Positions 2,034-19,841 of a DNA stretch of 22,769 bases are shown here, in pieces. Each line of letters opens with the position of its first letter. The first letter of the stretch is position 1. Source of the DNA: a virus; the IMG/VR virus record IMGVR_UViG_3300045260_000028, positions 1 to 22,769 of that record; one strand, written 5' to 3'. Under the pieces are notes generated by a model. That model worked only from the letters and a program-made list of their open reading frames with translations. It was not told the origin of the DNA and searched no databases. The position numbers were made by a program, and so were the translations under genes.

Positions 2034-3547
2034 AATGGATGCAGAAAATCTGGAATCGTTACGAGACGACGACTCCATCAAGAACGCATGACATCGGCCG
2101 GTCTACCGGCGATGGCGACCGTCCCATCGGCATGGCCGGCAAGACATTGCGCGAACAGGCGCGATTTCTCGAAGAGAATCATGATCTGGTCAACGGCATT
2201 CTGACCGTACTGGTCAATAACACGGTGGGGCCAGAAGGCATCACGGTGGAGCCACTGCCGCGCAACGCTGACGGGTCCGTCAATCGCGATCTGGCCGATG
2301 AATTGTCCCTACTCTATGACGACTGGTCGAGGCATCCAGAGGTCACAGGGGAGTACACCCGCCCGGCCATGGAGCGACTGCTCGCGCGCTCTTTGTACCG
2401 AGACGGAGAGGTGTTTGTCCAACACCTCTCCGGGCGGGTGCCATTCTTGCAGCACCGCACGCAGGTGCCCTATAGCGTGGAGATGCTCGAGGCGGACATG
2501 GTCCCAATGGACCACCCGGACAACGTCCAACACAATAATTTTCAGGGCGTGATCAAGAACAATTGGGGTCAGCCGATAGCCTATCAGGTCTATATGCGTC
2601 ATCCCGGCTCGATCAAGGCGTGGGATACCCAGCTCAAGGAAGTAAAAGCCGATAGCATGCTCCACGCCAAGCTGGTCTCACGAGTCGGGCAGACGCGCGG
2701 CGTGTCACTTTTCGCCTCGGTGCTCAAGCGGCTCAACGATCTGAGAATGTACGAGGAATCCGAGCAGGTAGCGGCGCGCATGGCGGCGTGCCTGGGGCTT
2801 TATATCAAGAGGGGCAACCCTGACCTGTATGTGCCGGGCAATGAGGAGGAAGGCGACGATCGACTGTTCGAGATGGCGCCGGGCATTATTTATGACAATC
2901 TACTGCCTGGGGAAGAGATCGGCGATATCAGCCCGAACCGGCCGAGCCAGCTTCTGCAGCCGTTCCGCGACAGTATGCTCAAGGCGGTCAGTGCCGGCGT
3001 GAAGGCCAACTATTCCACGGTCTCCAAAGACTACTCCGGGACGTATTCCTCGCAGCGCCAGGAACTCTCCGACTCGTATGTGAACTACGGCACGCTGCAG
3101 GCTGACTTTGTGAACCAGATTTGCAGGCCTATGTGGGAGCAGTTTCTCGCCTCGGCATTGATGGCCAAATTGATCCGCGTTCCGGACAGCCTGGACGAGC
3201 GCACGCTATACGATGCTACATTCCGCGGCCCTGTTCAGCCGTGGATCGACCCGGCCAAAGAGGCGTCCGCCAACCTGATCCAGGTGCGTGCCGGCTTTAA
3301 ATCCTTGTCCCAGGTGATCCGGGAGCGTGGGGAGAATCCACGCAGAGTACTCGCTGAGATTCAGCGAGAGCGCGAGGAGGCTGAGGAGATGGGCATTGAA
3401 TTGTCCAGTTTTGCGTCTACTGACGATACCAACATGGGAGGCACAGGTGATGATTCTGGCCAAAGCCAAGGGCTTAGAACTCAAGGTAACAAAGACGACG
3501 ATTCAGGGTCAGGCAGTGCCTCGGGGAGAGCTGTACGTCTACGGTGA
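2030..3547 (+). CDS. Portal protein, lambda gpB family
   Basis: Dodecameric portal at the capsid vertex through which DNA enters and to which the connector attaches. The 505 residues compare with 533 in lambda gpB. Family-like stretches include the N-terminal REQARFLEENHDLVNGILTV with VNNTVGPEGI, the central LYRDGEVFVQHL, and the later region with LLPGEEIGDISPNRPS and YSTVSKDYSGTYSSQRQ. The C-terminal tail is low-complexity (Gly/Ser/Asp-rich from about residue 470), as in relatives. The start overlaps the preceding stop (ATGA). The last 98 bases overlap the protease-capsid gene in another frame, a compact layout like that of lambda B and C. Confidence 0.95.
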   Translation: MKWMQKIWNRYETTTPSRTHDIGRSTGDGDRPIGMAGKTLREQARFLEENHDLVNGILTVLVNNTVGPEGITVEPLPRNADGSVNRDLADELSLLYDDWSRHPEVTGEYTRPAMERLLARSLYRDGEVFVQHLSGRVPFLQHRTQVPYSVEMLEADMVPMDHPDNVQHNNFQGVIKNNWGQPIAYQVYMRHPGSIKAWDTQLKEVKADSMLHAKLVSRVGQTRGVSLFASVLKRLNDLRMYEESEQVAARMAACLGLYIKRGNPDLYVPGNEEEGDDRLFEMAPGIIYDNLLPGEEIGDISPNRPSQLLQPFRDSMLKAVSAGVKANYSTVSKDYSGTYSSQRQELSDSYVNYGTLQADFVNQICRPMWEQFLASALMAKLIRVPDSLDERTLYDATFRGPVQPWIDPAKEASANLIQVRAGFKSLSQVIRERGENPRRVLAEIQREREEAEEMGIELSSFASTDDTNMGGTGDDSGQSQGLRTQGNKDDDSGSGSASGRAVRLR

Positions 3548-5567
3548 CATTGTCAGCGAAAAATGGTTCGAGGGTGACGTAGCGCCTGCGGATGTCGTTA
3601 ATCTGCTCAACGAGATGGCGTCCCTGCAGGTCTCCGACATCGATGTCTATGTCAACTCGATGGGTGGTTCCGTATTCGCAGGCACTGCGATCTATTCCGC
3701 GCTCAAGCGCCACCCGGCTGCAATCAATGTGCAGGTCGACGGCATCGCTGCTTCGATCGCGTCGGTGATCGCGATGGCAGGCGACCTTATCAGCATTGCC
3801 GACGCCGGCATGATCATGGTGCATTCGCCCTGGTCTGTCGCGATGGGCAATGCCGCTGAACTGCGCAAGCAGGCTGACGTGCTGGATCAGGTGGAGGTCT
3901 CGATGAGAGAGGCCTATATCAACCGAACCGGCATCGATGAGAAACAATTGGCCCAAATGTTGGCTGATGAGACCTGGATGACGGCAAAAGAGGCCGTAGA
4001 GCTTGGTTTTGCCGATGAAATCGTGCAAGTTACAGACGTAGCGGCGCAGTACGTGCCGGAAGACCGGTTTCGGAATACGCCAGAATGGTTGAAGTCCGGG
4101 AGCGATTTTAAAATTCCTTGTGAAACCACTGCATGCCGCCTGCAAGGCGCATCAGCGGACACATCAACTGGTACCGCGGAGGACGCAGCAATGCCCGATC
4201 CTATCGACATCGACACTCAGCTGAAGGCGGCGCGCGAAACCGCTGCCGAAGAGGCAAAAGCAGCCGCGATTGCGGAAGAGAAAGCCCGGAAAAAGCATAT
4301 CAATGCCCTTTTTCTGCGCTTTCCCCAGCATGCGGACTTGCGCCAGGAATGCATGGATGACATGGACTGCACTATCGAGGCAGCGAACACTAAATTGCTG
4401 GATAAGCTGGCTGAAGGTGCGGGCCCATTGGGTGGTGCTTCTCGCATCGAGGATCTCGGCAGCGAGCACGAGAAATTCAAGGCAGGCATCGTTGATGGCA
4501 TTTTGCAGAAAGCGCAGGCCAAGCCCATCGATGAGAGTAATCCCTATCGTGGCTTTTCGATGCGCGATGTGGCGCGCGTTTGTGCGGCCAAGCTGGGGCA
4601 TCCGGTCGACCGGATGGGGACAGAGCAGATCATTCGCGCGGCCCTGACCTCGGAGTCGGATTTCCCGACCCTGTACGAGAACGCCATGCACAAGGTGCTG
4701 CTGAACGCCTATCGCGTCCAGCCGGACACGTGGTCCGAATTTATGGGCACCACCACCCTGGCGGACTTCCGGCCGCATAACCGCTATCGGATGGGAACCT
4801 TCGGCAACCTGCCGACGCTGACCGAGAATGGCGAGATTCCGCGCACCAATCTGCAGGATGCCGAGAAAGAGCAGATTAGCGCGGTTGAGCGCGGCATGAT
4901 TTTCGATCTGAGCTTCAAGGCTATCGTGGATGACGACCTGGGCGGGTTGACTCGAGTCGCCACCCAGATGGGCCGGGCAGCGCGCCGGACGGTGGAGTCT
5001 TCCGCCTACGACCTGCTGATCTCCAACCCGACGATGGGCGACGGGGTCGCATTGTTCGATGCGGCGCACAACAACATGGCCGCGACAGGTTCCGAGATCA
5101 GCGTTGAGTCCCTCGGCGAAGCGCGGGCGGCCATGCGCCGCCAGATGGACCCGTCGAGCAATGAGTACATCGATCTGCTGCCGGCCGTGCTGCTCTGCCC
5201 AGTGGAAATTGGCGATCTGGCCCGCCAAGTCGTGGCGTCCGAGACTGATCCCAGTCAGACCAACAGTCGGGTACCCAATCCGATCCGCAACATGGTTCGC
5301 GTGATCGACACGCCCCGCCTGTCCGGTACCGGGTGGTACTTGTTCGCCTCGCCCATGGACACCGCTGTTGGCGAGGTCGGTTTCCTGAACGGCATGTCCG
5401 AGCCGGAAATGATGATGGAGGAACTGTTCGAGAGCCGCGGCGTGCAGTGGCGCGTCACTCTCGACTTCGGCGTCGCGATGCTCGAGTGGCGTGCAGGCTA
5501 CTACAATGAAGGCGCCGCACCGGCCGCTCTGGGTGTTCAAGCGAAGCGGACCAACGGCAAGAAGTGA
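3450..5567 (+). CDS. ClpP-like prohead protease / scaffold / major capsid fusion
   Basis: One 705-residue reading frame with three functions. Residues 1-200 are a ClpP-type (S14) serine protease: NSMGGSVFAG (69-78), Ser102 in GIAAS, His125 in MVHSPW, and an acidic residue at 173/174 before WMTAKEAVELGFADE. Residues 248-340 are charged and Ala/Glu/Lys-rich, as expected of a scaffold (delta) region. From about 350 to the end is a Mu gpT-like major capsid protein (DFRPHNRYRMG, TENGEI, KAIVDDDLGG, AARRTVESSAYDLL). I chose ATG 3450 because GGGAGG (3436-3441) is eight bases upstream; the frame is open back to 3327 but that part shadows the portal gene. Such fusions are known in phages. The protease would process the scaffold inside the prohead. 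Confidence 0.93.
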   Translation: MILAKAKGLELKVTKTTIQGQAVPRGELYVYGDIVSEKWFEGDVAPADVVNLLNEMASLQVSDIDVYVNSMGGSVFAGTAIYSALKRHPAAINVQVDGIAASIASVIAMAGDLISIADAGMIMVHSPWSVAMGNAAELRKQADVLDQVEVSMREAYINRTGIDEKQLAQMLADETWMTAKEAVELGFADEIVQVTDVAAQYVPEDRFRNTPEWLKSGSDFKIPCETTACRLQGASADTSTGTAEDAAMPDPIDIDTQLKAARETAAEEAKAAAIAEEKARKKHINALFLRFPQHADLRQECMDDMDCTIEAANTKLLDKLAEGAGPLGGASRIEDLGSEHEKFKAGIVDGILQKAQAKPIDESNPYRGFSMRDVARVCAAKLGHPVDRMGTEQIIRAALTSESDFPTLYENAMHKVLLNAYRVQPDTWSEFMGTTTLADFRPHNRYRMGTFGNLPTLTENGEIPRTNLQDAEKEQISAVERGMIFDLSFKAIVDDDLGGLTRVATQMGRAARRTVESSAYDLLISNPTMGDGVALFDAAHNNMAATGSEISVESLGEARAAMRRQMDPSSNEYIDLLPAVLLCPVEIGDLARQVVASETDPSQTNSRVPNPIRNMVRVIDTPRLSGTGWYLFASPMDTAVGEVGFLNGMSEPEMMMEELFESRGVQWRVTLDFGVAMLEWRAGYYNEGAAPAALGVQAKRTNGKK
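4191..5567 (+). CDS. Probable nested scaffold-capsid product (internal in-frame start)
   Basis: Within the protease-capsid frame, GGAGGA at 4178-4183 lies seven bases before an in-frame ATG at 4191 (residue 248, MPDPIDID). This is exactly where the protease domain and its linker end and the charged scaffold segment begins. A start here would give a 458-residue scaffold-capsid protein without protease. Lambda does the equivalent with Nu3, which starts inside gene C in the same frame. The sequence shows the site; its use is inference. It would supply many capsid subunits per protease copy, as assembly needs. Confidence 0.6.
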   Translation: MPDPIDIDTQLKAARETAAEEAKAAAIAEEKARKKHINALFLRFPQHADLRQECMDDMDCTIEAANTKLLDKLAEGAGPLGGASRIEDLGSEHEKFKAGIVDGILQKAQAKPIDESNPYRGFSMRDVARVCAAKLGHPVDRMGTEQIIRAALTSESDFPTLYENAMHKVLLNAYRVQPDTWSEFMGTTTLADFRPHNRYRMGTFGNLPTLTENGEIPRTNLQDAEKEQISAVERGMIFDLSFKAIVDDDLGGLTRVATQMGRAARRTVESSAYDLLISNPTMGDGVALFDAAHNNMAATGSEISVESLGEARAAMRRQMDPSSNEYIDLLPAVLLCPVEIGDLARQVVASETDPSQTNSRVPNPIRNMVRVIDTPRLSGTGWYLFASPMDTAVGEVGFLNGMSEPEMMMEELFESRGVQWRVTLDFGVAMLEWRAGYYNEGAAPAALGVQAKRTNGKK

Positions 5568-18133: not shown

Positions 18134-18502
18134 GTGAAAGCAAATACTGTCGACAGCAAGTCGGTGACGCTGTACCTGACCAAAGAGACCGTGGAAAAGA
18201 TTGCGGATTTCGCTGAAGCCACCCACCGCACTAAAAGCCTGGCCGCGGAGATATTGATCCTGCACGGGATCGCGAACTACGACATTAAAGCTGCAGCGCC
18301 AAAACGGGTGGCTAAACCGAAAAAAGCCACTGCGGCGAACACCCGGGTAAAGAAGCCTGCTGCGAAAACCTCAGGGAGGAAACCGGCGGCAAAAACGCCG
18401 ACAAAAGCCAATGGAACTACCCAGCCGAACGCAACGCCGCCTAGGAAGCGGCGCCGCTCCCCTGCTGCATCCTCTGCTGCTGCAGAGACGCAAGCCGCTT
18501 GA
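18134..18502 (+). CDS. Ribbon-helix-helix protein with histone-H1-like tail
   Basis: 122 residues from a GTG start with TGGAG eight bases upstream. Residues 9-46 look like a ribbon-helix-helix DNA-binding domain: a strand (KSVTLYLTK), helix ETVEKIADFAEATHR and helix SLAAEILILHGIANYD. The rest is a Lys/Ala/Pro/Thr-rich tail (KRVAKPKKAT, KKPAAKTSGRKPAAKTPTK, RKRRRSP) like bacterial histone-H1-type proteins. It probably binds DNA both specifically and broadly, as a repressor or nucleoid-type protein. It is the only rightward gene in this region and ends 62 bases inside the antisense of the helicase gene. If it were not real, 18096-18440 would be empty. Confidence 0.68.
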   Translation: MKANTVDSKSVTLYLTKETVEKIADFAEATHRTKSLAAEILILHGIANYDIKAAAPKRVAKPKKATAANTRVKKPAAKTSGRKPAAKTPTKANGTTQPNATPPRKRRRSPAASSAAAETQAA

Positions 18503-19841
18503 CCACGGCTTCTTGCACGGTCATGCGATTTTCGAGCATTGCGATAATATCGTCATCGACCGTGCGGCCGTCCGGGTGGGTCATGTTGAGGTGATGGATT
18601 ATTACCGTCCGATTTTTCTGCCCCTGGCGGTAGAGGCGCCCGTTCGCCTGGGCGTAAATCTCGGGCGAACTCTCCTGGCAGTACCAGACAATAATGTGCG
18701 CGCCGCCAAGCTGCAGGTTCAGGCCATGGCCTGCAGTTAACGGGTTGGTAATCAATACCGGAATCCTATTGGCGTTGAAGGCATCGACACAGGCCGTGGT
18801 GTTGTGCCGGGTCATCAATGTCGATTCGGGGAAGCGAGCCTGCAAGGCAATACCCTCTACGATGTATTTACAGAACACCAGCACCGGGTTACCATTCGCG
18901 CCCTCGATGATAGTCTCCAGGTGATCCATCTTGTCCTGATTGTGCCAGATCGTTTCCTTGCAGTCGGTATAGGAAAACCCCTGGATTACCTGTAGCAGCT
19001 TGTTCCATAGCACCCCCGCGGACGCCACGGTCACATCCTTTCCCTGCCACTCCACCGCCATCTGGCGCTCGAGATCGTTGTACAGTGACCAGTGCTCGTC
19101 ACTCATGCGGATGTCGTGGTGGGTGGTGATGCGCTCTGGCATGTCCAGATGATCCTCGGCCTTCAACTGGTACACGATCGGTGAGATGCGCTCAGTGATG
19201 ACTTCCGCGGCTCCGGGCTTGATCGTGTATTCCCGGTCGAAGGGCGACTGCAGATAAAAGAACAGATTGATGTATTGATCCTTGGTCGTGCCAAGCGCTT
19301 TGCCGCCGTCGATCGTGCGCAGCTGACCGAACAGGTCGATGAAGCCTTGCGTGCTCATCGGCGTGCCGGTCAGACCCCAGTGCCGATCGAACCGGTGATA
19401 GTTCCGAAGGATCCACCGAGCACGCACCGTGCCGACGTTCTTGCACTTGGTCAGCTCGTCCCAGACCACGATGTCCCAGGGCCATTCCCTGCCGGTGCGC
19501 TTCAGTTCCTTCTCGAGCCACGCCAAGCCTTCGTAATTGATCAGGTGGATGTCCACTTTCTGTCGCAGCCGCTGGGCCTTGTTCGGGCCGTGCAGCAATT
19601 GCATGGACAGGTGCTGGGTCTCGGCCCACTTGGCGCCTTCGGCCTGCCAGACCGCCTGGACCACCGACAGCGGCCCGACGATCAGCATCTTCTCGGCAGC
19701 GTCCGCGCGGCGCAGCAGGATGAAGGCCAGCAGGGTCTGGATGGTCTTGCCCAGCCCCGGGTCTTCGAACAGGCAGGCATTGGGGTGGTTGACTAAATGC
19801 AGGATCCCTTTTCGCTGATAGTCTCTTAGTTTAATCTTCAT
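18441..19841 (-). CDS. SNF2-type DEAD-like helicase
   Basis: 466 residues with both RecA-like domains. The Q-motif-like LRDYQRKGI starts at 5; Walker A is DPGLGKTIQ (27-35); motif II is VVWDELT (125-131), with Leu-Thr in place of the usual Ala/Val-His; motif III is LTGTPM (157-162). In the C-terminal half are VLVFCKYI, TAGHGLNLQ and YAQANGRLYRQGQ (motifs V and VI). SNF2-like phage proteins translocate on double-stranded DNA and act in replication, recombination or repair. The start ATGAAG at 19841 overlaps the end of the methyltransferase remnant by 11 bases, showing the original gene coupling. Confidence 0.92.
   Translation of the reverse strand: MKIKLRDYQRKGILHLVNHPNACLFEDPGLGKTIQTLLAFILLRRADAAEKMLIVGPLSVVQAVWQAEGAKWAETQHLSMQLLHGPNKAQRLRQKVDIHLINYEGLAWLEKELKRTGREWPWDIVVWDELTKCKNVGTVRARWILRNYHRFDRHWGLTGTPMSTQGFIDLFGQLRTIDGGKALGTTKDQYINLFFYLQSPFDREYTIKPGAAEVITERISPIVYQLKAEDHLDMPERITTHHDIRMSDEHWSLYNDLERQMAVEWQGKDVTVASAGVLWNKLLQVIQGFSYTDCKETIWHNQDKMDHLETIIEGANGNPVLVFCKYIVEGIALQARFPESTLMTRHNTTACVDAFNANRIPVLITNPLTAGHGLNLQLGGAHIIVWYCQESSPEIYAQANGRLYRQGQKNRTVIIHHLNMTHPDGRTVDDDIIAMLENRMTVQEAVVKRLASLQQQRMQQGSGAAS

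Follow-up and report, generated by a model that had tools for sequence, protein, structure and literature searches.

A putative internal start in phage protease–capsid fusion genes predicts capsid subunits without protease

Within a viral protease–capsid fusion gene, a strong Shine-Dalgarno (SD) sequence precedes an in-frame ATG at the junction between the protease and scaffold domains, and an equivalent arrangement is found in most of the related fusions. The window analysed here comprises 22,769 nucleotides (positions 1 to 22,769 of IMG/VR record IMGVR_UViG_3300045260_000028). Taken at the level of sequence, the recurrence of the junction site in relatives is far beyond chance. We consider it highly likely that translation of the fusion gene begins at two starts, with protease-free subunits co-assembling with a protease-bearing minority.

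The full-length fusion gene (positions 3450 to 5567, plus strand; ATG at 3450, stop codon at 5565–5567) has the domain order ClpP-type protease, putative scaffold and HK97-fold major capsid protein. Pfam places an N-terminal CLP_protease domain at residues 57–193 and, in the same open reading frame (ORF), a C-terminal Phage_capsid_4 domain at residues 398–685, while a match to PHROG 133 spans residues 18–688, nearly the whole length. The 705-residue fusion of protease and capsid protein described in an earlier note is thus borne out by the translation and both sets of profiles. An AlphaFold model, for which the window protein and 22 relatives served as input, is well ordered from approximately residue 22 to 217, and together with the Pfam match this defines a protease domain of approximately residues 1–217 (3450 to 4100, plus strand). 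It is followed by a linker predicted to be disordered (residues 218–252; 4101 to 4205, plus strand; pLDDT below 50) and by a scaffold-like region (4209 to 4511, plus strand), which in the structure model consists of predicted helices across residues 254–354 (254–289, 292–303, 309–323 and 339–354). The gene upstream encodes a lambda-type portal protein and the gene downstream a head decoration (cement) protein, which is the usual head-gene order. The start of the fusion overlaps the 3′ end of the portal gene by 98 bases (3450–3547), and its ribosome-binding site, GGAGG plus spacer (3438 to 3449, plus strand), lies within the portal coding sequence. Beyond the tail genes, the window also carries an SNF2-type helicase gene on the minus strand (18444–19841).

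Positions 4178–4193 read GGAGGA, CGCAGCA and ATG. The putative internal SD (4178 to 4183, plus strand) is thus separated by a seven-base spacer from an ATG (4191 to 4193, plus strand) that shares the reading frame of the fusion and encodes Met248, exactly as the earlier note had claimed. The note's placing of the site at the boundary between protease and scaffold agrees with the AlphaFold model, where Met248 falls within the disordered linker, just before the first long scaffold helix, which begins at residue 254. The proposed nested product, a protease-free scaffold–capsid protein of 458 amino acids (4191 to 5567, plus strand), is still matched by Phage_capsid_4.

SD pairing energies were calculated against the canonical anti-SD sequence. 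The energy at 4191 is −9.5 kcal/mol. The start of the full-length fusion reaches −10.2 kcal/mol, and the 17 predicted gene starts of the window have a median of −5.7 kcal/mol. Among 121 internal in-frame ATGs in the window's genes, three reach −9 or better: 4191, 3903 (protease domain) and 3389 (close to where the portal gene ends). Judged from the window alone, the site at 4191 is unusual, and it constitutes weak evidence that is not decisive, because an equally strong site exists at 3903 within the protease domain. There, at 3885–3905, a strong SD (GGTGGAGG) stands ahead of the in-frame ATG inside the ClpP domain. We set 3903 aside as a second start, and it is probably a chance occurrence, since only 2.6% of protease-domain ATGs in the family have a strong SD.

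Homologous fusions are present in Gifsy-2, Fels-1, mEp460, F10, MD8, Providencia and Pasteurella phages and in prophages of Sphingomonas and Sphingobium; among the loci collected, 118 have ClpP and capsid protein in one ORF. In a second class, an unrelated protease, Peptidase_S78 (HK97-type), is joined to the same capsid family (L116, L123, L125, L126, L128 and L130), so that at least two protease families occur in protease–capsid fusions. In five enterobacterial prophage copies (L055, L057, L058, L059 and L061) a frame change in the scaffold part or close to it disrupts the fusion, and four of them share apparently the same break. No relative of the window protein closer than approximately 40% identity was found apart from one 100% identical contig, which was also the only near relative retrieved when viral and genome collections were searched with the scaffold–capsid part. 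Because there is no close relative besides this contig, the window's own site can be tested by position only.

The earlier note had proposed aligning ClpP–capsid fusions to see whether a strong site and a methionine are conserved at the junction, and had named the lack of such conservation as grounds for rejection. The comparison instead showed conservation, with a strong SD and a methionine recurring at the junction in most ClpP–capsid fusions, and also in S78–capsid fusions. With the junction taken as 95 to 190 codons ahead of the capsid-domain match, a definition made after first inspection, an in-frame ATG with an SD of −6 or better is present at the junction in 78% of 45 dereplicated fusions, whereas equal-sized windows of the capsid domain reach this value in 5% (P about 4e-18). 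Calculated per ATG, a strong SD is present at 38.8% of junction ATGs compared with 2.6% in the protease and 3.7% in the capsid domain, and the values for out-of-frame ATGs in the same linkers are 1% and 8%. The mean best SD energy at the junction is −6.94, about 11 standard deviations from the −3.07 ± 0.34 obtained for positions drawn at random in these linkers, and the mean energy profile upstream of in-frame junction ATGs has a peak at initiation spacing only. Because the junction had been defined after first inspection, the definition was applied unchanged to nine isolate fusions retrieved later, and all nine have a site of −5.5 or better (P about 2e-4). Under very strict dereplication, 72% of the 25 highly divergent representatives that remain have a site at −6 and 88% at −5. 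A few fusions, such as L116 and L159, do not have a good junction site; that of L165 lies outside the defined region.

The peptide encoded around the junction start differs between groups. The junction ATG aligns across 27 of the 28 sphingomonad representatives, the other (L105) having a site of its own, and CAGGAG or AAGGA is found upstream in nearly all. This ATG is kept even where the downstream scaffold N-terminus is unrelated; in L172, L098, L111, L094, L102 and L120 unrelated sequence follows right after the conserved ATG, as if scaffold N-termini had been swapped there. In the enterobacterial, Pseudomonas and Pasteurella group a different ATG is found elsewhere in the linker, in the context E-F-x-x-M, with GAGGAA, GAGGAG, CAGGAG or AAGGAG as SD. 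The window protein does not have this methionine, and its site is located approximately 38 residues further along the linker. In the S78 fusions the peptides are different again, with strong sites of up to −12.0. A strong SD-like sequence before the protease motif ETWM in F10 and Gifsy-2 was rejected as a candidate, being explained by the conserved protein motif.

Two further measures, in which the related sequences are not fully independent, point to the same place. Codon conservation beyond that of the amino acids puts the region just after the ATG among the top 5 of 650 windows in one group, and in a second, separate group the SD is the top window of 609. The mRNA is also predicted to be less structured around junction ATGs, with an unpaired fraction of 0.55 compared with 0.39 around other internal ATGs.

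In some relatives the protease and the scaffold–capsid protein are encoded by separate genes (Dulem virus 34, Faecalibacterium phage FP_Epona and contigs L146 and L149). Their scaffold–capsid gene, of which the proposed nested product would be the counterpart, has a strong SD (about −11) ahead of its start, which occupies the equivalent position: 161 to 187 codons separate it from the capsid match, compared with 99 to 185 codons for the junction ATGs. The main rival explanation builds on this arrangement: the site would be a relic of a stop codon lost between the two genes, persisting unused, and all capsid subunits would arise by proteolysis of the full-length product. The split relatives have exactly the gene order and the strong SD that make such a descent of the site plausible, and a processed 1:1 fusion could still build a capsid. 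An unused relic should decay, however, and the conservation of the signal therefore counts against it: 25 very divergent representatives still show the signal amid differing peptides, the arrangement is maintained even as the position of the ATG varies from group to group, and codon choice is most conserved beside the site. We regard the relic as improbable.

Still less likely is an origin in chance or composition, whereby linkers rich in Glu, Lys and Gln would produce SD-like sequences, some of them accidentally ahead of methionines. Synonymous shuffling does reproduce most of the SD strength for a given peptide, and the observed sites did not exceed this synonymous-codon null (Fisher P 0.78 and 0.42). 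The null is uninformative here because the SD is written mainly by Lys, Gln and Glu-Glu residues, for whose presence a peptide-level reason is possible. The second strong internal site of the window, at 3903, is also in keeping with a chance origin. Against it stand the lack of signal at random positions and at out-of-frame ATGs of the same linkers, the sharp peak at SD spacing and the nine out of nine in the held-out isolate set, which together make this explanation very improbable. Least probable of all is translational pausing, in which the SD-like sequence would slow ribosomes so that the protease folds before the scaffold–capsid part is made, the methionine being incidental; a site exactly at the domain boundary, in a linker disordered in the model, would suit this role, but pausing would work in any frame and without an ATG at initiation spacing, SD strength peaks only at that spacing from in-frame ATGs, and the ATG is a conserved residue of an otherwise variable linker.

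Initiation at nested starts is already known for protease and scaffold in lambda and Mu, and the analogy to lambda C/Nu3 drawn in the earlier note is upheld by the same scan and can be widened to gene Z of Mu. In lambda C, the sole strong internal in-frame ATG is codon 309 (SD −9.7), giving a product of 131 residues, in agreement with the length of Nu3. The Nu3 start annotated in the lambda record has no SD, and this annotation looks outdated; the annotated start and codon 309 of C lie at positions 2333 and 2543 of locus L191, corresponding to 5132 and 5342 of the lambda record. As in the fusion, the in-frame start in lambda lies within the protease gene at the boundary between protease and scaffold, and the C-terminus is common to both products. 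In Mu, where the record annotates an internal start for the scaffold Z within the protease gene I, the annotated Z start is the strongest in-frame ATG (CAGGAGAACAAACCC ATG, −7.4) and closely resembles the CAGGAGAACACC ATG of the sphingomonad fusions.

The systems differ in the content of the nested product. In lambda this product contains scaffold alone, and a separate gene encodes the capsid protein gpE, whereas in the fusion the capsid protein would be part of both products. Likewise, the capsid protein T of Mu is separate, while the fusion, whose capsid domain in the window has a weak match to Mu gpT, combines Z-like and T-like parts in one protein. The fusion ORF runs in frame through the capsid domain, and by its sequence the fusion is best described as a variant of the lambda C/Nu3 and Mu I/Z nesting, not as a strict member.

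Gifsy-2 and MD8/F10 have, like the window, a single ORF for a ClpP-like protease and the capsid protein, with a middle region that is scaffold-like and in the window protein predicted to be helical, and their proteins are homologous to that of the window. In excerpts of the MD8 paper, a single gene encodes the three parts and an internal start is not mentioned (PMC8508860). According to the same excerpts, HK97 gp5 with its delta (scaffold) domain has scaffold followed by capsid, which is also the plan of the proposed nested product (PMC8508860). In HK97, unlike in the fusion, protease and capsid precursor come from separate genes. Virion proteomics of phage B8b covered 42.7% of its 685-amino-acid fusion (PMC4294664). 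This coverage fits a capsid-only mature form, from which initiation and cleavage are indistinguishable.

The recurrence of the site, its SD spacing and frame, its presence with two proteases, the split-gene counterpart and the known nested starts all argue for the nested start that the earlier note had proposed as a solution to the stoichiometry of the fusion, in the form of a lambda- and Mu-type nesting extended to the capsid protein. In the mechanism that we envisage, one mRNA would carry two starts. The start at 3450 would produce the 705-residue protease–scaffold–capsid protein, and that at 4191 the 458-residue scaffold–capsid protein, equivalent to an HK97 gp5-like precursor. Both forms would co-assemble through their common scaffold and capsid domains, each procapsid thus incorporating a minority of protease-bearing subunits, and the protease would afterwards remove the scaffold and itself. 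The ratio of protease to capsid protein would in this way be kept below 1:1 despite the gene fusion, as Nu3 within lambda C and Z within Mu I do for scaffold alone. From the evidence above we infer initiation at 4191, co-assembly, the ratio of the products and which of them is more abundant; fusion phages probably use one gene to produce capsid subunits that mostly lack the protease, together with a smaller number that bear it.

To the extent that this could be checked, what is new is the inclusion of the capsid protein in a nested product and the recurrence of this arrangement in fusions with two unrelated proteases. A literature search found no paper on an internal start in such fusions; the Gifsy-2 paper (Effantin et al. 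2010, Virology), which was outside its scope, might mention one. It is likely that protease–capsid fusion genes of tailed phages generally consist of two translation units with a common 3′ end, that ClpP and S78 fusions alike have kept or regained an internal start, and that the protease reaches procapsids as an N-terminal extension carried by a minority of the capsid subunits. The full-length product alone would mean that one protease is brought by every capsid subunit, a puzzle that a conserved nested start would resolve with one nucleotide-level feature. Such a start ties the fusions to the arrangements of lambda and Mu, would explain the tolerance of fusions with unrelated proteases, and implies a second product absent from the current annotations of many phages.
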